64,000 nucleotides of DNA, from NCBI RefSeq assembly GCF_001418325.1, contig NZ_LIPN01000052.1, positions 1 through 64,000 of the forward strand, written 5' to 3'. The DNA comes from Streptomyces atriruber (GTDB lineage: Bacteria; Actinomycetota; Actinomycetes; Streptomycetales; Streptomycetaceae). The notes beneath the pieces were generated by a model, which was not told the origin of the DNA, did no database searches, and saw only the letters and a program-made list of their open reading frames with translations. Of this stretch, positions 600 through 40,960 are shown piece by piece. How positions within the stretch are numbered: position 1 is the first letter of the stretch; every line of letters begins with the position of its first letter. Made by a program: the position numbers and the translations under genes.

Positions 600-3497
600 T
601 CAGCTGCAGCCGCTGGTCGAGCCGCAGCCCTCGCAGATGTAGCAGGAACCGGCGCGCTGCATCTTCGTGCCGCAGGAGAAGCACAGCGGTGCGTCGGCCT
701 GGATGCCCAGCTGCATCTCCACGAGCTCGGCGCTGGTGTGCGCCTGCTGCGGAGCCTCCTTGGCCACCTCGGCCTCCGCCTTCGGCGTGGAGACCGCCTT
801 CAGGGACTCGGGCTGCCGCGGAGCGGACTGCGCCAGACCCTCGACGTCCACCTCGTCCTCGGCGGGCTCGTACGACCCGGTCTCCAGGTGGCGCTGACGC
901 TCCTCGGCCGAGTGGATGCCGAGCGCGGAGCGCGTCTCGAAGGGCAGGAAGTCCAGCGCCAGGCGGCGGAAGATGTAGTCGACGATCGACTGCGCCATCC
1001 GCACGTCCGGGTCGTCCGTCATACCGGCCGGCTCGAAGCGCATGTTCGTGAACTTGGAAACGTACGTCTCCAGGGGCACGCCGTACTGCAGACCGACGGA
1101 GACGGCGATGGAGAAGGCGTCCATCATGCCCGCGAGGGTCGAGCCCTGCTTGGACATCTTGAGGAAGACCTCGCCCAGACCGTCGTCCGGGTAGGAGTTG
1201 GCGGTCATGTAGCCCTCGGCGCCACCCACCGTGAAGGACGTGGTGATGCCGGGACGGCCCTTCGGGAGGCGCTTGCGGACCGGACGGTACTCGACCACCT
1301 TCTCGACCGCGGCACGGATCGTGTCCTCGGTCTTCTCGGTGATCTCGGCCTTCTCCTCCTCCTTCTTCTTGGCGGAGAGGGGCTGGCCGACCTTGCAGTT
1401 GTCGCGGTAGATGGCGAGCGCCTTGACGCCCATCTTCCAGGCCTCGTAGTAGACCTCTTCGACGTCCTCGACGGTGGCGGTCTCCGGGAGGTTGACCGTC
1501 TTGGAGAGGGCACCCGAGATCCACGGCTGGATCGCGGCCATCATGCGGACGTGGCCCATAGCGGAGATGGAACGCTCGCCCATGGCGCAGTCGAAGACTT
1601 CGTAGTGCTCGGTCTTCAGACCCGGGGCGTCGATCACATTGCCGTTCTCGGCGATGTGGGCGACGATCGCCTCGATCTGCTCCTCCTGGTAGCCCAGGCG
1701 GCGCAGGGCCTGCGGCACGGTGCCGTTGACGATCTGCATCGAGCCGCCGCCGACGAGCTTCTTGAACTTCACCAGGGCGAGGTCGGGCTCCAGGCCCGTG
1801 GTGTCGCAGGACATCGCGAGACCGATGGTGCCGGTCGGGGCGATGACGGACGCCTGGGAGTTACGGAAACCGTTCTTCTCGCCGAGGCGGATCACGTCCT
1901 GCCAGGCCTCCGTGGCGGCGGCCCAGATCGGCGAGTCCAGGTCGTCCATGCGGACGGCCGAGGCGTTGGCGTCGGCGTGCTGCTTCATGACGCGCTTGTG
2001 CGGCGTGGCGTTGCGGGCGTAGCCGTCGTAGGGACCGACGACCGCGGCGAGCTCGGCGGAACGCTTGTACGACGTACCCGTCATCAGCGACGTGATGGCA
2101 CCGGCGAGGGCGCGGCCGCCGTCGGAGTCGTACGCGTGGCCGGTGGCCATGAGCAGGGCGCCGAGGTTGGCGTAGCCGATGCCCAGCTGGCGGTAGGCGC
2201 GGGTGTTCTCGCCGATCTTCTGCGTCGGGAAGTCCGCGAAGCAGATGGAGATGTCCATCGCGGTGATGACCAGCTCGACGACCTTGGAGAAGCGCTCCGA
2301 GTCGAAGGACTGGTTGCCCTTGCCGTCGTCCTTGAGGAACTTCATCAGGTTCAGCGAGGCGAGGTTGCAGGACGTGTTGTCCAGGTGCATGTACTCACTG
2401 CACGGGTTCGAGCCGTTGATCCGGCCGGACTCCGGGCAGGTGTGCCAGGCGTTGATCGTGTCGTCGTACTGGATGCCCGGGTCGGCGCAGGCCCAGGCGG
2501 CCTCGGCCATCTTGCGGAAGAGCGACTTGGCGTCGACCTCCTCGATGACGTCGCCCGTCATGCGGGAGGTGAGGCCGAACTTGCCGCCCTCCTCGACCGC
2601 CTTCATGAACGTGTCGTTCACGCGGACCGAGTTGTTGGCGTTCTGGTACTGGACGGACGTGATGTCGTCGCCGCCCAGGTCCATGTCGAAGCCCGCGTCG
2701 CGCAGGGCGCGGATCTTCTCCTCTTCCTTCACCTTGGTCTCGATGAAGCCCTCGATGTCGGGGTGGTCGACGTCGAGGATGACCATCTTGGCCGCGCGAC
2801 GCGTGGCGCCACCGGACTTGATGGTTCCGGCGGAGGCGTCGGCACCGCGCATGAAGGAGACGGGACCCGAGGCGTTGCCTCCGGAGGACAGCAGTTCCTT
2901 GGAGGAACGGATGCGGGACAGGTTCAGGCCGGCGCCGGAGCCGCCCTTGAAGATCATGCCCTCTTCCTTGTACCAGTCGAGGATCGACTCCATGGAGTCG
3001 TCGACGGCCAGGATGAAGCAGGCGGACACCTGCTGCGGCTGGGGCGTTCCGACGTTGAACCAGACCGGGGAGTTGAAGCTGAAGATCTGGTGCAGGAGGG
3101 CGTAGGCCAGCTCGTGCTCGAAGATCTCCGCGTCGGCGGGCGAGGCGAAGTAGCTGTAGTCCTCGCCGGCCTTGCGGTACGTCTTCACGATGCGGTCGAT
3201 CAGCTGCTTGAGGCCGGTCTCGCGCTGCGGGGTGCCGACGGCCCCGCGGAAGTACTTGCTGGTGACGATGTTGACCGCGTTCACCGACCAGAAGTCGGGG
3301 AACTCGACGCCACGCTGCTCGAAGTTGACCGAGCCGTCGCGCCAGTTGGTCATGACGACGTCACGGCGCTCCCAGACCACCTCGTCGTACGGATGCACGC
3401 CGGGCGTCGTGTGGATGCGCTCGATACGCAGACCCTTGTTGGCCTTGGAACCCTTGGCGCGGGAACCTCGTGCCGGGCCGCTCGTCGTCTCGGTCAT
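600..3497 (-). CDS. nrdJ: adenosylcobalamin-dependent (class II) ribonucleoside-diphosphate reductase
   Basis: A 965-aa class II ribonucleotide reductase, which reduces ribonucleotides to deoxyribonucleotides without oxygen using an adenosylcobalamin-derived thiyl radical. Visible family signatures include FNSPVWFNVG followed by a cysteine strand (SACFI), the loop FKGGSGAGLNL, the NPCSEY finger-loop motif followed by SCNLASLNL, and a Cys-rich tail (CFSCGTKM, then SCYICEGCG). The tail is a zinc-binding/thiol-relay element typical of the actinobacterial NrdJ form. The ATG start at 3497 has a GGAGG site just upstream. The gene follows nrdR by 137 nt on the same strand, giving the known streptomycete nrdRJ operon. 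No cobalamin riboswitch is visible upstream; in Streptomyces that element controls the class I operon instead. Confidence 0.97.
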   Translation of the reverse strand: MTETTSGPARGSRAKGSKANKGLRIERIHTTPGVHPYDEVVWERRDVVMTNWRDGSVNFEQRGVEFPDFWSVNAVNIVTSKYFRGAVGTPQRETGLKQLIDRIVKTYRKAGEDYSYFASPADAEIFEHELAYALLHQIFSFNSPVWFNVGTPQPQQVSACFILAVDDSMESILDWYKEEGMIFKGGSGAGLNLSRIRSSKELLSSGGNASGPVSFMRGADASAGTIKSGGATRRAAKMVILDVDHPDIEGFIETKVKEEEKIRALRDAGFDMDLGGDDITSVQYQNANNSVRVNDTFMKAVEEGGKFGLTSRMTGDVIEEVDAKSLFRKMAEAAWACADPGIQYDDTINAWHTCPESGRINGSNPCSEYMHLDNTSCNLASLNLMKFLKDDGKGNQSFDSERFSKVVELVITAMDISICFADFPTQKIGENTRAYRQLGIGYANLGALLMATGHAYDSDGGRALAGAITSLMTGTSYKRSAELAAVVGPYDGYARNATPHKRVMKQHADANASAVRMDDLDSPIWAAATEAWQDVIRLGEKNGFRNSQASVIAPTGTIGLAMSCDTTGLEPDLALVKFKKLVGGGSMQIVNGTVPQALRRLGYQEEQIEAIVAHIAENGNVIDAPGLKTEHYEVFDCAMGERSISAMGHVRMMAAIQPWISGALSKTVNLPETATVEDVEEVYYEAWKMGVKALAIYRDNCKVGQPLSAKKKEEEKAEITEKTEDTIRAAVEKVVEYRPVRKRLPKGRPGITTSFTVGGAEGYMTANSYPDDGLGEVFLKMSKQGSTLAGMMDAFSIAVSVGLQYGVPLETYVSKFTNMRFEPAGMTDDPDVRMAQSIVDYIFRRLALDFLPFETRSALGIHSAEERQRHLETGSYEPAEDEVDVEGLAQSAPRQPESLKAVSTPKAEAEVAKEAPQQAHTSAELVEMQLGIQADAPLCFSCGTKMQRAGSCYICEGCGSTSGCS

Positions 3498-3634
3498 GCC
3501 GCCTCCCTATATCAGGCTAAAACGCCCTGAAGTGCCACGTTGTTCCCATGGCACGGATGTGTGTCTGGTGTCGAGGGCACCCCGGAGGGCACCTTCAACA
3601 GGTCTGGTTCGCCGCCGGCCCGTCGGTCAGCCGG

Positions 3635-35393: not shown

Positions 35394-37046
35394 GTGGACC
35401 CGGTGATCGTCGTCGGCGCGGGCCCCGTCGGACTCGCCCTCGCCCTCGCCCTCGCCCGGCACTCGGTGCCCACCGTCGTCCTCGACGAGGGACCCGGCAA
35501 GGACGAGCAGCGCCCCGCGCGGACCGTCGTGCTCCGCGACGACACCGCGGCGTTCGCGGAACGGCTCGTGGGTCACTCGTTCGGTGACACGGAATCGGGC
35601 GCACGGTGGACGGGCTGGCGCTCCGTGCGGCGCAAGCAGCTGATGCGGGAGCTCGACTTCGACGAGGAGACCCCCGCGCCGCTGCACCTGCCGCAGCACG
35701 TGCTGACCGCCGCGCTGCGCGAAGCCATCGCCGACGAGCGGCTCGTCAAGATCGCGGTGGACAGCAAGCTCGACTCCCTGGAGCAGGACGCCGGTGGAGT
35801 GACCGCGCACACGCGCGGGCCGAAGGGCACGTGGTGGCGGGGCAGTTACCTGGTGGGCTGCGACGGGCCGCGCTCCACGGTGCGCAAACTTCTCGATGTC
35901 CGCTTCCCGGGACGTACGGCCGTCGAGCGACACGCCGTGGCCGCGCTGCGCACGGAACTTCCGTGGCCGGGTCAGGCGTTGTTGCACCGGATGCCTCCGT
36001 GGCGCCACGGAGGCGCCGAGGTCGCGGGCCGACCGCTGGCCGGCGGAGTGTGGCGGCTCGACTGGCTGCTTCCGCCGCGCGGCGACCTGGTGACGCCCGA
36101 CGCCATCGTCGTGCGCATCCGGGAGACCCTCGCGGGCTGGTGCGGCGGCTCCACACCGCCGTACGAACTGCTCGACACGGGCGTGCACACCGTCCACCAC
36201 CGGCTCGCCCGGCGGTGGCGGATCGGCCGCGCCTTCCTCGCCGGGGACGCCGCGCACCTGCTCGGCGCGCTCGGCACCCAGGGGCTGGACGAAGGGCTGC
36301 GGGACGCCGACAACCTCGCGTGGAAGCTGGCGCTCGCCTGGCACCACGGCGCGCGCGAACCACTGCTCGACAGCTACCAGGTCGAGCGCCGGGCCGGTGT
36401 GGCCGCCCGCCTGCGCGCCGCCGACCAGTCGCTGCCCGCGCTGCGCGGCAGCAAGGGCCTGCGCTCGTACGTCCCCGGGACCGCGCGCGGGCACGACACG
36501 CTCCTCACGGACGGCCATGTGGGGCGCGGCCCGCTCGGCGCGCCCTCGTCGTACGCCGATTCACCGCTGGCGCCCGAGCCCTCCGAGTCCGTCACGGCGG
36601 TCGCCACGGAACCCGGGGCGCCGGTCGCCGATGTGCGGGTGACGGCGCCGGACGGATCCTTCGTCCAGCTGCGGGACCGCCTCGGGCTCGGGCACCTGGT
36701 CGTCGTCCTCGTCGCGCCGGGCACCGTGGTGTGGGAGCGGCGGCACTGGGTGACGGCCGGGATCATGCCGCGGCTCGCCGCGGCGGTCACGGCCCTGCCG
36801 CACCCCGCCGAGCTGCTCGTCGCAGAGAGCTATCCGGGAGCCGCGGCCCACTCGGTCCTGCTCGTACGCCCCGACGGACACCTGGTCACGGCGTTGTCCG
36901 GGGTGCGCCCGGCCGAGCTGTACGCGGCGGCCGAAGCGGCACTGGGCGGGCCGACGGCGTCCACGGGGCCCGGGGACGGCGCGGGACGACCGGACCGTAC
37001 GGGCGAGGAGGAGAGCTCGGCGGGGGCGGCACGGCGTTCGGGGTGA
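35394..37046 (+). CDS. FAD-dependent aromatic-type monooxygenase
   Basis: 550 aa from the GTG at 35394, with GGAGGG eight bases upstream; the longer frame from 35280 has no ribosome site. Group A flavoprotein monooxygenase features: Rossmann GAGPVGLALALALAR at the N-terminus, the DG motif (VGCDGPRSTVRKLL), and the FAD-ribityl motif GDAAHLLGALGTQGLDEG followed by DADNLAWKLA. A thioredoxin-like C-terminal domain (about residues 420-515) is present. The usual Pro-x-Gly-Gly-Gln-Gly of the ribityl motif is changed to Gly-x-Leu-Gly-Thr-Gln-Gly. Substrate unknown. It is separated from gluD by a terminator. Confidence 0.85.
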   Translation: MDPVIVVGAGPVGLALALALARHSVPTVVLDEGPGKDEQRPARTVVLRDDTAAFAERLVGHSFGDTESGARWTGWRSVRRKQLMRELDFDEETPAPLHLPQHVLTAALREAIADERLVKIAVDSKLDSLEQDAGGVTAHTRGPKGTWWRGSYLVGCDGPRSTVRKLLDVRFPGRTAVERHAVAALRTELPWPGQALLHRMPPWRHGGAEVAGRPLAGGVWRLDWLLPPRGDLVTPDAIVVRIRETLAGWCGGSTPPYELLDTGVHTVHHRLARRWRIGRAFLAGDAAHLLGALGTQGLDEGLRDADNLAWKLALAWHHGAREPLLDSYQVERRAGVAARLRAADQSLPALRGSKGLRSYVPGTARGHDTLLTDGHVGRGPLGAPSSYADSPLAPEPSESVTAVATEPGAPVADVRVTAPDGSFVQLRDRLGLGHLVVVLVAPGTVVWERRHWVTAGIMPRLAAAVTALPHPAELLVAESYPGAAAHSVLLVRPDGHLVTALSGVRPAELYAAAEAALGGPTASTGPGDGAGRPDRTGEEESSAGAARRSG

Positions 37047-37188
37047 GCGCGGAGTACACATAGGCGGGCGTGGTGTTCGTCGACGGGCAGGGACGTACGT
37101 CGACGGCCGGGATGTACCTCAGCGCGGGCGTCGTACGGCTCGTACGGCGTGCGCAGGGGGGCGCCCGCGCCCGCATTCCGAGCCGGGG

Positions 37189-37217
37189 TTGACCGGCCCC
37201 CACCCCCGTGGTCTACT
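37189..37217 (+). promoter_or_regulatory. promoter placing transcription start at the leader-peptide GTG
   Basis: TTGACC (37189-37194), a 17-bp spacer and TCTACT (37212-37217) form a plausible housekeeping-sigma promoter. The expected start point, 7-8 nt downstream, coincides with the GTG at 37225, so the mRNA would be leaderless. Confidence 0.6.
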
Positions 37218-37224
37218 CCGGATC

Positions 37225-37311
37225 GTGACCGACACCGATGTGCGCCTGTGGCGGAGGGTCCATATGGACCTCGTCCGCTATGCGGGCTGCGTGTGTCACC
37301 CGTCCTGCTGA
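37225..37311 (+). CDS. Cys-rich attenuator-type leader peptide
   Basis: 28 codons from the GTG at 37225 to TGA at 37309, too short for routine gene calling. The C-terminal part reads RRVHMDLVRYAGCVCHPSC: three cysteine codons in the last seven, directly before the stop. The RRVHMDLVR core matches a class of small streptomycete leader peptides found ahead of sulfur and other metabolic operons. Alternative starts are GTG 37240 and ATG 37264. It ends 80 nt before a cysteine-catabolic gene. Slow decoding at Cys codons under low charged tRNA-Cys could change folding or translation downstream. Peptide existence is likely; the mechanism is inference from mycobacterial Cys-attenuators. Confidence 0.75.
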   Translation: MTDTDVRLWRRVHMDLVRYAGCVCHPSC

Positions 37312-37391
37312 ATTCGCATTCCTCCCTCGCGCACTGAGCATCGCTCCGGGCTGGCTCGTGCGCGCTTCCGCGAACCTCCAGGACGGTACCC

Positions 37392-37928
37392 GTGTCTGTT
37401 GCTCCCTCCGCCTCACCCGCCTCTGCACACTCCTCGGCGCCCACCGCCGCCGAGCTCCTCGCCTTCGTCCGCCGCACCGCGGCCGACTCCGAACTCGTCG
37501 CCTCTCTGCCGCTCGATCCCGAGGGCCGCACCTGGGTGCGCCTGCAGGGGCCCGGTGGCAGCGAGGCGTGGCTGATCGGCTGGCCGCCCGGCACCGGCAC
37601 CGGCTGGCACGACCACGCGGAGTCGGTCGGCGCCTTCCTCACCGCGGCGGGCACTCTCAAGGAGAACTCCCTGGCCGCGCGCCTGCCCACCGACGGGTGG
37701 AAGACACTGGAGCTCTCCGACGACGTCGACCGCGAACGGGAGCTGACGACCGGCGAGGGACGCGCCTTCGGCCGGAACCACGTGCACGAGGTGCTGAACC
37801 AGTCCTCGACCGAGCACGCAGTCTCCGTGCACGCGTACTATCCGCCGCTGCCCCGGATCCGCCGCTACAGCCGCACGGGTGACGTACTCCGCCTGGAGTC
37901 CGTCGAGCGCCCGGAGGACTGGCAGTGA
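37392..37928 (+). CDS. cysteine dioxygenase-family protein
   Basis: 178 aa from the GTG at 37392, with AGGA about eight bases upstream. Cupin-fold cysteine dioxygenase: iron-binding pair in GWHDHAESVGAF and the third histidine in GRNHVHEVLN; the usual extended C-terminal strand (VSVHAYYPPLPRIRRY) provides the substrate tyrosine region. The family oxidises L-cysteine to cysteine sulfinate. Bacterial members with this context (rhodanese partner, Cys-rich leader) are consistent with removal of excess cysteine. The stop overlaps the rhodanese start by four bases. Confidence 0.88.
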   Translation: MSVAPSASPASAHSSAPTAAELLAFVRRTAADSELVASLPLDPEGRTWVRLQGPGGSEAWLIGWPPGTGTGWHDHAESVGAFLTAAGTLKENSLAARLPTDGWKTLELSDDVDRERELTTGEGRAFGRNHVHEVLNQSSTEHAVSVHAYYPPLPRIRRYSRTGDVLRLESVERPEDWQ

Positions 37929-38326
37929 GTGATGAACAGCCGGTCGGTGTCGACGAGTTGCTGGAGCGCGTACGACTCGGCCTCGACCGGCTCTCTCCGA
38001 AGGAGGCGTACGAGGTCGCCGAGGGCGGCGGACTGCTGGTCGACATCCGCTACGCGGCACTGCGGGAGCGGGATGGGCTGATTCCCGGCGCGCTCGTCGT
38101 CGAACGCAACGAACTGGAGTGGCGACTCGACCCGCAGGGCAGCCATCGCTCGCCGGAGGCCACCGGCCATGACCTGCGCGTCGTCGTGGTCTGCAACGAG
38201 GGATACGCATCCAGCCTCGCGGCCGTCTCCTTGCGGCAGTTGGGACTGCGCCACGCCACCGACCTCACGGGCGGCTTCCAGGCGTGGCGGGCGGCGGGGC
38301 TGCCGGTGGTGACCGCCGAAACGTGA
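37925..38326 (+). CDS. rhodanese-like sulfurtransferase
   Basis: 133 aa from the GTG at 37925, translationally coupled to the cysteine dioxygenase gene. Single rhodanese domain: LLVDIRYAALRERDGLIPGA, then the active-site cysteine in VVCNEGYASSLAA and the final DLTGGFQAWRAAGLPV. It transfers sulfane sulfur to an acceptor. Coupling to a cysteine-oxidising enzyme suggests a role in handling excess sulfur. Followed by a clear terminator. Confidence 0.92.
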   Translation: MSDEQPVGVDELLERVRLGLDRLSPKEAYEVAEGGGLLVDIRYAALRERDGLIPGALVVERNELEWRLDPQGSHRSPEATGHDLRVVVVCNEGYASSLAAVSLRQLGLRHATDLTGGFQAWRAAGLPVVTAET

Positions 38327-38334
38327 GTACGCGC

Positions 38335-38365
38335 GTGGGCGCCCCTTCGCGTAAGGGGCGCCCAC
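38335..38365. terminator. hairpin terminator of the sulfur operon
   Basis: Perfect 13-bp arms (38335-38347 and 38353-38365) with a 5-nt loop between convergent genes. Confidence 0.92.
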
Positions 38366-38395
38366 CATTGCGTACCGCTCCTTACCTCCGCTCCC

Positions 38396-40960
38396 CTACT
38401 CCTTGGCCGTGGCCACGGTGACGGGAAGCGGCCTCAGCGCGGCACGGCCCGGCAGGGCGGTCGCGGTCAGGGCGAGCAGACCGGCGACGGTGATCACGGA
38501 GACGTACACCAGAGGAACGACCGTCGGCGCGGCGCCACCGGTCATCCCCACACTGAACGCCGTCAGAACGGCGAGCGCCACCCCGCTGCCCAGCGCGGTG
38601 CCGATGAACAGGACCGCCAGCGCCTCGGTGCGCAGCATCCGCAGCACCTGGCGGCGCGTGGCCCCGGCGAGGCGCAGCATCGCGAACTCGCGCAGGCGCT
38701 CGGAGACGGACATGGCGAGGGTGTTGACGACGGCAATGGCGGTGAAGGCGAGGACGAGCTCCATCGCCAGCAGGTTCACCTCGGCGTTGGCCTGACGGCT
38801 CGCCGCCTGCAGACCGTCCACGGCCGCCGGGGTGAGCACGTGCACGCCCGGGAACTTCTCGACATCGGCCGCGAGTTGTTCCTGCGTACGGTCGCTCTTG
38901 ACGAGGACCGTGGCGGCGAGCGGGTTGTCCACGTGGCGGGCGACCAGATCGTGCGCCATGGTCAGGTCTCCGAACCCGAGCCCGCGTGCGTACACGGCCC
39001 GGACGGTGAGTTCTGTCTTCGTGCCGTCTCCCAGCGTGAATGCGAGCGTGCTGCCCGGCTTCAGTCCGAGCCGGTCGGCGGCCAGTTCGCTCACGGCGAC
39101 GCTCTCCTCGCCGAAGTCCTCGATCGATCCGGCGGTGACATCCGGGTCCCAGGTGCGGGCGAGGTTCTCCGGGGTGACGCCCTGCGCGGGGTACTTGTCG
39201 AGCCCGACGCGCACCGTCGTGCGGACGACCTCGGTGGCGGCCTCCACGCCGTCGGTCGTACGCAGCTTCCGCGCGGCCTCTGCCGGGACGCCCGGACCCT
39301 GCGCGGCGAGCACCCAGTCCGCGCGGACGCCGTCGCGGGCCTGGGCACGGGCGGCGTCGTCGAGGGTGGGCTGGACGAAGAGGACGGTGCAGGCCATGCC
39401 CGTGAGCAGGGCGAGCGGAGTGACGACGGCGGCCATGCGGGCGGCGTTGCCACGCAGGTTGGCGTGGGTGAGCTTGCCTCCGGGCCCGGTCCAGCGGAGC
39501 GGACCCCGGAGGAGTGCGGCCGCAGCCCGGACCACCAGCGGCCCGAGCAGCGCGATGGCGCACGCGAAGACCACGACCGTCAGGAACGTCACGGGGGTCG
39601 ATGCCGCCTCGGTGCGCAGCACGCTCAGCACGGCGACCAGGACGACACCCCCGACGAGGAACACCAGGCCCGCGACGATCCGACTCCAGACGGGCCGTTG
39701 CCGCTCGACGGAGGCCTCGGCAAGGGCCTGCGCGGGACGGATGCGGACGATCCTGCGCCCCGCGATGCGAGCGGCGGCCCACGCGCCCAGCAGGGTCGCG
39801 CCGACTGCGACGAGGGGCGGGAAGACGCTGACGGTGCGCTCAAGGGTGGCGGGCACGGCACCCGTTGCCACGAAACGGGCGTGCAGCCGGCCTCCGAGCG
39901 GGATTCCGGCGAGTGCGCCGACGGCTCCCGCCACCGCTCCGACGATCACCGCCTCACGCCCGAGCAGCCTGCGGATCTGCTTCGGGGTCGCGGCGACGGC
40001 GCGCAGCAGGGCGAGTTCGCGGTGGCGCTGCTGGACCGAGAGGGCGAAGGTGCCGACGACCACGAGGACGGCGACGAGGAGGGAGGTACCGCCCATGGCA
40101 CCGCCGATGCTGATGAGCTTGACGTGCGCCCCCGCCGCGTCGAGGAACTCCACGGGTCCGCGGTCGTCCCCCGCACTGACCTGCGCCGTCGTTCCTTCGA
40201 CGGCCTTCTCGACCGCCTTCTCGAGGTCGGTGACGGTGGTGCCCTTGTCGGGCACGACGCCGAAGGCGGTGACCTTGCCGGGGTGCGCCGCGAGCCGCTC
40301 GGCCTCTTCGGAGGAGAAGAAGAGCGAGGTCTGGTGGGTCAGGGCGCCGCTCTCGGGAGCGGCCACTCCAGTGATGCGGTAGTCGCGCGGGCTCTGCGTC
40401 GACTGGACGGTCAGGTGGTCGCCGGGGCGCAGTCCCATGCGGTCGGCGAGGCCGCGGTCGACGACGAGATCGCGGGAGGAACGCGGCGCCGTGCCGTCGA
40501 CGAGCCGGAAGGGGGTGAGGGCGGCGGACTCCCAGGCATGCCCGTACGAAGGTGTGCCGGACCCGCCTGACCCGCCGGACCCGCCCGTCGCGCCGGACTT
40601 CAAGGGCTGCGCGAGGAACGTGAGTTCGGGAACGACGGCGCCGACGCCCGGGGCGCTCTTGATCCTGTCCTCGATGTCGCGGGCCTGCAGCCAGGCTCTC
40701 TCGGCGATCGGTTTCGCCTTGTGCTTGACCTTGGTCTTGCCCTTCTTGTGCTTGACCGTGGTGCGGTGCACGTTCTGGTCGGCGGAGACGATCACGGGGG
40801 CCGCGGCGTAGCGCTCGGTCTTGATCGTGCCGCGCAGACCGGTCTCCAGGAGGGTGCCGCAGGCGGTGATGAGGGCCGCGGCGCACATCAGGGCGAGGAA
40901 GGCGCCGAGGAATCCGCCCTTGCGGTCCCTGACGGTCTGCAGTGCGTAACGCAGCATCAT
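38396..40960 (-). CDS. FtsX/MacB-type ABC transporter permease
   Basis: 854 aa. Two copies of an FtsX-like permease module: N-terminal membrane helix (FLGAFLALMCAAALITACG), a large extracytoplasmic domain, three helices with GTFALSVQQRHRELALLRAVAATPKQIRRLL, then a second extracytoplasmic domain and a C-terminal helix triplet with LAMSVSERLREFAMLRLAGATRRQVLRML. A Gly-Ser linker (TGGSGGSGGSG) and a Lys-rich stretch (KHKKGKTKVKHK) interrupt the first outer domain. Such proteins pair with an ATPase to move lipids, lipoproteins or antibiotics, but no ATPase gene is adjacent. The start overlaps the upstream regulator gene by four bases, so it is probably co-regulated. Confidence 0.85.
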   Translation of the reverse strand: MMLRYALQTVRDRKGGFLGAFLALMCAAALITACGTLLETGLRGTIKTERYAAAPVIVSADQNVHRTTVKHKKGKTKVKHKAKPIAERAWLQARDIEDRIKSAPGVGAVVPELTFLAQPLKSGATGGSGGSGGSGTPSYGHAWESAALTPFRLVDGTAPRSSRDLVVDRGLADRMGLRPGDHLTVQSTQSPRDYRITGVAAPESGALTHQTSLFFSSEEAERLAAHPGKVTAFGVVPDKGTTVTDLEKAVEKAVEGTTAQVSAGDDRGPVEFLDAAGAHVKLISIGGAMGGTSLLVAVLVVVGTFALSVQQRHRELALLRAVAATPKQIRRLLGREAVIVGAVAGAVGALAGIPLGGRLHARFVATGAVPATLERTVSVFPPLVAVGATLLGAWAAARIAGRRIVRIRPAQALAEASVERQRPVWSRIVAGLVFLVGGVVLVAVLSVLRTEAASTPVTFLTVVVFACAIALLGPLVVRAAAALLRGPLRWTGPGGKLTHANLRGNAARMAAVVTPLALLTGMACTVLFVQPTLDDAARAQARDGVRADWVLAAQGPGVPAEAARKLRTTDGVEAATEVVRTTVRVGLDKYPAQGVTPENLARTWDPDVTAGSIEDFGEESVAVSELAADRLGLKPGSTLAFTLGDGTKTELTVRAVYARGLGFGDLTMAHDLVARHVDNPLAATVLVKSDRTQEQLAADVEKFPGVHVLTPAAVDGLQAASRQANAEVNLLAMELVLAFTAIAVVNTLAMSVSERLREFAMLRLAGATRRQVLRMLRTEALAVLFIGTALGSGVALAVLTAFSVGMTGGAAPTVVPLVYVSVITVAGLLALTATALPGRAALRPLPVTVATAKE

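Follow-up and report, generated by a model that had tools for sequence, protein, structure and literature searches.

The window, the whole stretch of Streptomyces atriruber DNA analysed here, is 64,000 nucleotides long. On its forward strand lie a gene for cysteine dioxygenase (CDO), a rhodanese gene that overlaps it and, upstream of both, a short reading frame with three cysteine codons. The genes and the upstream elements are as follows.

37189–37217, forward strand: promoter, read from the sequence, with a −35 box TTGACC (37189–37194), a 17-nt spacer and a −10 box TCTACT (37212–37217)
37225–37311, forward strand: leader open reading frame of 28 codons (VTDTDVRLWRRVHMDLVRYAGCVCHPSC), GTG start, TGA stop at 37309–37311
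37288–37290, 37294–37296 and 37306–37308, forward strand: leader cysteine codons 22 (TGC), 24 (TGT) and 28 (TGC)
37294–37296, forward strand: invariant UGU codon of Cys24 (conserved TGT), the proposed sensor codon
37392–37928, forward strand: cysteine dioxygenase, 178 aa, GTG start, Pfam PF05995 (CDO_I), E 1.7e-50
37925–38326, forward strand: rhodanese-domain protein, 133 aa, GTG start, PF00581, E 2.4e-12

The best solved-structure match of the first gene is 8qfr, a cysteine dioxygenase (E 1.3e-13), and the GTG of the rhodanese gene overlaps the CDO stop by 4 nt. The two Pfam matches and the overlap confirm the cysteine-oxidising enzyme and coupled rhodanese that a first-pass annotation, made from the letters alone, had placed downstream of the leader. 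Of 120 CDO loci, 110 also have a match to this rhodanese in the stretch retrieved for them, among them 19 of the 20 loci from outside Streptomyces; these counts concern presence only.

The −10 box TCTACT is followed by 7 nt and then by the GTG at 37225, which is the likely transcript start as placed by the TTGACC-17-TCTACT arrangement. We compared 100 leaders, drawn from the 80 best CDO loci, 16 further Streptomyces loci, four loci from the family search and the window. The promoter pattern TTGA[CA]N, 17 or 18 nt, TSTACT was found in 92 of them (17 nt in 84, 18 nt in 8), and eight gave no match. The −10 box lies 7 nt from the start codon in 89 of the 92 promoter-matching leaders, including five that are 1–2 codons longer, so that promoter and start codon stay at a set distance from each other. 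A fixed distance of this kind is as expected for a leaderless reading frame, and to this extent the leaderless layout is supported. A generic sigma-70 scan detected no promoter at the locus; that scan requires an A as the second base of the −10 box, which TCTACT does not have. It should be noted that the promoter set comprises 100 distinct sequences and the leader set 81, the difference being due to the variable upstream bases. The first-pass annotation had thus correctly described both the promoter with its predicted start at the GTG and a 28-codon GTG peptide with three Cys codons among its last seven.

That peptide also passes the cut-off of the NCBIfam model NF042934, 'putative leader peptide' (cis_reg_atten), with 37 bits against 27 and a match over positions 1–19 of 19. 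Because it belongs to an existing model, this kind of leader is already known. The model was matched in all 61 Streptomyces genomes, with 4 to 16 matches in each (E ≤ 0.01). The family motif is R-x-H-x-D-L-x-R, and the spacing from its His to the invariant Cys is fixed at 11 residues; across the family, H, V, D, L and R are for the most part kept as residues, although the codons that specify them differ. In our reading, a position directly upstream of a sulfur or cysteine gene is a further family trait, and the CDO–rhodanese pair is such a target. The window leader ends in Cys22-Val-Cys24-x-x-x-Cys28, its three cysteines falling within the last seven codons with none adjacent.

The invariant cysteine, Cys24 in the window leader, shows a marked codon constraint. 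It is encoded by TGT in 81/81 distinct CDO leaders, in 35/35 distinct leaders from 43 other Streptomyces loci, where the spacing is 11 residues throughout, in 37/37 distinct leaders from two other orders (42 loci; L206 gave no motif and the rest are repeats), and in 9/9 further family-type CDO leaders, eight of them outside Streptomyces. Before the spacing was fixed, a looser Cys pattern had given UGU in 40/42 other Streptomyces leaders and 35/37 leaders of other orders; a recount at fixed spacing near the match gave UGU in 39/39 loci of other orders, with L206, L209 and L211 lacking the motif. The UGC codons of L180 and L185 belong to a neighbouring Cys, and the invariant Cys of both is UGU. 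TGT accounts for 9.4% of Cys codons in the genes of the window (23 long ORFs), and the other Cys codons near the invariant one are 42 TGC vs 4 TGT in other Streptomyces leaders and 31 TGC vs 10 TGT in other orders (29 vs 12 before the correction of L180 and L185). The leader sequences are related, and no probability is attached to the conservation of UGU.

All 81 distinct CDO leaders likewise have Cys22, encoded by TGC in 79 of the 81. A Cys two codons before the invariant Cys occurs in 0/43 other Streptomyces leaders and in 2/39 leaders of other orders (L175 and L202), both before non-CDO genes. Codon 5 (37237–37239 of the window) is Cys in 31/81 distinct CDO leaders; it varies among Asp, Cys, Ala, Tyr and Ser, yet its third base is T in 63/81. 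We read the sequence patterns of the family as selection that acts on the motif at the level of its residues and on the invariant Cys at the level of its codon.

Among the best 80 CDO matches, of which 79 are labelled Streptomyces and one 'Actinobacteria bacterium', the leader stands upstream of CDO in 79. In the sole exception, L014, unrelated sequence replaces the promoter and the 5′ half of the leader, apparently through an insertion bearing a mobile-element end, while the part from Cys22 to the stop and the P2 arm described below are retained (within 2701–3030). Outside Streptomyces, a Cys-containing leader precedes CDO in 9 of 20 loci, eight of them with the NF042934 motif as judged by eye, and in the other 11 none was found by pattern or by eye. 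The short ORF before CDO in L115, from outside Streptomyces, ends in GGRCCRCC and is unlike NF042934, as is a short ORF with a CCCSSC end before the Streptomyces CDO copy L105; a further Streptomyces copy, L107, has a leader of NF042934 type. From L105 and L115, together with the family-type leaders, it follows that CDO genes are accompanied by cysteine-rich leaders of unlike sequence. In L112, L113, L114 and L126 the frame of an NF042934-type leader extends past the CDO start and overlaps the gene. The intergenic region of L109 contains a long C run, possibly a sequencing or assembly artefact.

The RNA elements predicted between the leader and the CDO gene are listed below.

37250–37279, forward strand: hairpin P1, inside the leader (codons 9–19), 11 pairs in two helices
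37300–37307, forward strand: 5′ strand of helix P2, CCGTCCTG, leader codons 26–28, the anti-ribosome-binding-site
37313–37317, forward strand: 5′ strand of helix P2b, TTCGC, pairing with GCGAA at 37370–37374
37328–37364, forward strand: P3, a G+C-rich hairpin of variable sequence within the P2/P2b arm
37370–37374, forward strand: 3′ strand of P2b, GCGAA
37379–37386, forward strand: 3′ strand of P2, CAGGACGG, the CDO ribosome-binding block

Each P1 pair is kept in 77–81 of the 81 distinct leaders. Seven bases of the P1 stretch vary in at least 5% of leaders; five of the seven are unpaired, and these include the first bases of codons 14 and 17, at which a change alters the amino acid.

The leader tail CCGTCCTG is the exact reverse complement of the CDO ribosome-binding block CAGGACGG. 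The block was found by pattern in 96/100 loci; the P2 counts exclude the remaining four, namely L018, whose standard block lies outside the pattern search window, and L055, L156 and L157, which have a variant block (GGGACGG or CCGGACGG). Over 95 distinct loci, P2 has 8 pairs in 71, 7 in 14, 6 in 9 and 5 in 1. Its pairing probability in 24 loci was 0.87 for the real sequences, 0.08 after the leader tail was shuffled and 0.82 when the middle alone was shuffled. On alignment A1 (MAFFT; 63 of 74 non-redundant loci, 11 long ones omitted), the eight columns of P2 are paired in 94.8% of cells, vs 24.8–54.3% when the helix is slid. Covariation on A1 is nearly absent, with one two-sided change, which 39/500 shuffles reach and the slid controls equal; the single compensatory case is L033. 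RNAalifold on A1 gave only 3 unrelated pairs and did not recover P2; since the middle of the alignment is too variable in length, we checked the helices sequence by sequence. The evidence for P2 is thus that its strands are complementary and conserved, together with the compensatory change in L033. P2b is complete, with its 5 pairs, in 66 of 95 loci and has 4 pairs in a further 28; P3 has a mean folding energy of −18.7 kcal/mol with a mean z of −2.84 against dinucleotide shuffles (95 loci).

The proposal of an attenuator-type RNA therefore agrees with the predicted folds, in which P2 masks the CDO ribosome-binding site, and of the covarying alternative hairpins looked for, a conserved masking helix was found while its covariation proved almost nil. 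No intrinsic-terminator-like site (a hairpin with a T run) occurs in 37050–38450, and intrinsic termination was rejected on this ground. Rfam gave nothing above the gathering score at 36900–38400, the lone listed match having 22.8 bits against 88. Elsewhere in the window, the known nrdJ RNA (RF03034) was found at 3521–3603 on the reverse strand, with 75.2 bits against a gathering score of 40.3.

In the folds, pairing between the leader tail and the ribosome-binding site exceeds a probability of 0.5 in 93/96 CDO loci vs 3/39 other family operons; of the 43 non-CDO Streptomyces loci, 39 were folded with gene starts assigned by hand, and L133, L135, L141 and L164, to which no gene start was assigned, were omitted. 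As modelled, the masking device is a trait of the CDO member and not of NF042934 generally, and leader-tail masking as a family-wide rule was rejected with only 3/39 other operons showing it.

The effect of ribosome position was modelled by barring ribosome-covered bases from pairing, with a generic footprint and fold energies rather than values measured in Streptomyces. Over 60 CDO loci, the free-site fraction was 0.03 with no ribosome, 0.02 with the ribosome at codon 5, 0.07 at Cys22, 0.23 at Cys24, 0.23 at Cys28 and 0.22 at the stop. A separate occlusion scan of 40 of the 96 CDO loci again gave the step from Cys22 to Cys24. In a variant in which only the RNA 3′ of the ribosome was folded (25 loci), the step is present when the ribosome front edge is placed at A+9 to A+14 but not at A+15. 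The modelled site opens only to about 0.13–0.28, because the freed site re-pairs elsewhere. No such step appeared in the Sir set (6 loci) or the CysO set (19 loci); small sets with a rise were the sulfatase (0.17 to 0.31, 3 loci), the monooxygenase (0.28 to 0.45, 5 loci) and a single two-rhodanese locus (0.19 to 0.60). The model thus suggests that the CDO site would stay masked until the A-site passes Cys22 and would then partly open.

Eight leaders were found in the window's genome, six scoring above the family cut-off and two under it; each stands before a different operon, and each has TGT at the invariant Cys. Two weaker matches (E > 0.2) in this genome showed no leader. Besides CDO, the targets are a sulfatase, the dimethylsulfone monooxygenase SfnG (above its NCBIfam cut-off), a nitrite/sulfite reductase, a ThiS-family protein with a cysteine synthase (cysKM, above cut-off) and a two-rhodanese sulfurtransferase; the remaining two, a dicarboxylate-type symporter and a flavin reductase, are both unspecific. 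Judged by these annotations, the shared theme appears to be mostly sulfur acquisition, with CDO as the odd one out. In another genome (G055), the family leader L203 lies less than 500 bases from a CDO gene, on the opposite strand.

On this basis, we propose that the leader is a cysteine-sensing translational attenuator in which a pause of the leader ribosome, when cysteine is short, unmasks the CDO site; we hold this reading with about equal belief and doubt. The transcript would start at or next to the GTG, as the promoter spacing suggests, and ribosomes would load directly on the leader. In the free RNA, leader codons 26–28 would pair with the CDO ribosome-binding site through P2, aided by P2b and P3, a predicted and conserved fold that would keep CDO off. 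When charged tRNA-Cys is scarce, the ribosome would be held up at codon 24, the invariant UGU, perhaps with the aid of the conserved R-x-H-x-D-L-x-R nascent chain at its fixed distance. According to the fold model, a ribosome at codon 24 would cover the 5′ strand of P2 and free the site, so that CDO and the coupled rhodanese would be made. The operon would then come on along with the sulfur-acquisition genes, whose leaders are of this kind, and the role of CDO would lie in sulfur turnover or the making of sulfite and not in simply getting rid of surplus cysteine.

The sign of regulation is the weakest step of this model. The anatomy would favour the usual sign, with CDO made under cysteine shortage; it is metabolically odd that lack of cysteine should induce an enzyme that degrades it, and this counts against our best explanation. 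The first-pass annotation had suggested that the sign might be reversed for a catabolic target. Under such a scheme, shortage would catch ribosomes at Cys22, and at Cys5 where present, leaving P2 closed and CDO off, and with ample cysteine ribosomes would reach codons 24–28 and open the site. The modelled site is indeed closed with the ribosome at codon 5 (0.02) or Cys22 (0.07), these cysteines are found in 31/81 and 81/81 CDO leaders against 0/43 other Streptomyces leaders with a Cys at the position of Cys22, and the scheme suits both a catabolic enzyme and growth on feathers. During keratin digestion on feathers vs LB, CDO transcripts of Streptomyces SCUT-3 rose 50.2- and 8.3-fold, as given in the consulted part of PMC7181669; the corresponding part of PMC12763843 gives rises of 21.65- and 6.36-fold for S. 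shaoguanensis at 96 h, with accumulation of thiols and variable up-regulation of sulfate-assimilation genes as well. The consulted parts of these two papers (PMC7181669, PMC12763843) do not deal with the leader. If the CDO genes concerned carry this leader, the data would agree with a supply of cysteine no less than with a lack of it; they are ambiguous on the sign. Against reversal, Cys22 is UGC in 79/81 and Cys24 UGU in 81/81, so that dwell would be greater at codon 24 if UGU is the slower codon; a steady-state shortage would also lengthen dwell at Cys24 and Cys28 and give more opening; and a Cys of the Cys22 type is not unique to CDO, as L175 and L202 (2/39, other orders) demonstrate. Because in the fold model the site opens when the ribosome stops at Cys24, even though a pause at Cys22 leaves it closed, and because the sister leaders of the same genome precede mostly sulfur-acquisition genes, we do not favour the reversed sign and regard it as unlikely, while taking it seriously.

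A leader peptide before an amino-acid catabolic operon is also found in E. coli, where TnaC works by ligand-induced arrest and Rho control, and the window leader resembles it in standing before such an operon. By analogy, excess cysteine or a derivative could stall the ribosome near the leader end. Such arrest would suit a catabolic target, would open the site in the model from anywhere between Cys24 and the stop, and is in line with conservation that extends beyond Cys, in that the residues H, V, D, L and R are mostly kept as their codons vary; we nevertheless consider it improbable, as the same motif precedes sulfur-acquisition genes, expected to be on at low cysteine, and the preference for UGU indicates codon decoding and not ligand binding. 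Control that is mainly transcriptional, in which the leader ribosome would shield the RNA from Rho or from a different terminator, could draw on a pyrimidine-rich stretch seen by eye after the leader stop in most rows of A1, but with the conserved arm covering the ribosome-binding site and no terminator-like site in the region scanned, it seems still less credible. Least probable in our estimate is that the upstream ORF plays a passive part, only coupling translation or supplying CDO with ribosomes, and does not sense cysteine. Leaderless small ORFs are common in actinobacteria according to the consulted part of PMC4633059, on mycobacteria, and the leader frame passes the CDO start in four non-Streptomyces loci (L112, L113, L114, L126); against passivity stand the UGU-specific conservation of an invariant Cys and the presence, ahead of the CDO copies L105 and L115, of Cys-rich leaders that are unrelated.

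The attenuator that we prefer shares traits with known systems without coinciding with them. Like ribosome-mediated attenuators, the window leader carries codons of the relevant amino acid. Within NF042934 it is a member above the curated cut-off that differs by its cysteine-oxidising target, by Cys22 and by the tail that masks a ribosome-binding site. Like the mycobacterial polycysteine ORFs (NF042933, Ms5788A), which the first-pass annotation had named as a parallel, it is probably leaderless and carries its Cys codons towards the end; however, the Cys codons there are contiguous, those of the window leader are not, the gene downstream of the latter oxidises cysteine, and its score of 16.7 bits against a cut-off of 45 does not allow assignment to that type. 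The mycobacterial ORFs are reported to act by translational attenuation (Canestrari et al. 2020, as cited in the consulted parts of PMC9031893, PMC9094748 and PMC13236596). The uORFC-8-2 motif, a cysS leader of Rhodobacterales, is likewise a Cys-codon uORF attenuator, but, as described in the consulted part of PMC8632094, it is of the transcription-terminator type, with tandem and predominantly UGC Cys codons, and belongs to a different phylum. The consulted part of a reannotation of S. lividans (PMC8079986) names eight attenuator leaders, none with the NF042934 motif; the metL leader among its entries ends in RCMCRRMCAF, with three Cys. Literature searches on Streptomyces Cys leaders, CDO leaders and the family name, at the level of titles and the starts of abstracts, returned no description. 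No report of a masking arm specific to the CDO operon was found in the searches made, and the leader type already has a database model.

Taken together, our results describe a leader that is real, conserved, of a known family and under a striking codon constraint, and the proposed mechanism is well supported as anatomy. Beyond the CDO operon, we tentatively suggest, while thinking it may well be wrong, that NF042934 is a sensor of cysteine through both codon and nascent chain, in which R-x-H-x-D-L-x-R seated in the tunnel would make an A-site UGU a hypersensitive pause for which UGC is insufficient. Outputs would then vary across actinobacteria, masking of the site by the leader tail being the CDO output, and Cys22 could invert or band-limit the response.

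If our model of the CDO operon is true, Streptomyces would need no protein regulator to tie cysteine oxidation to the supply of cysteine, and the same would hold for the sulfite that is proposed to help break down keratin. The same type of leader before acquisition and catabolic targets would offer a clean contrast for the sign of regulation, and the invariant UGU in high-G+C genomes would provide a handle on synonymous-codon sensing in a large and little-studied leader family.
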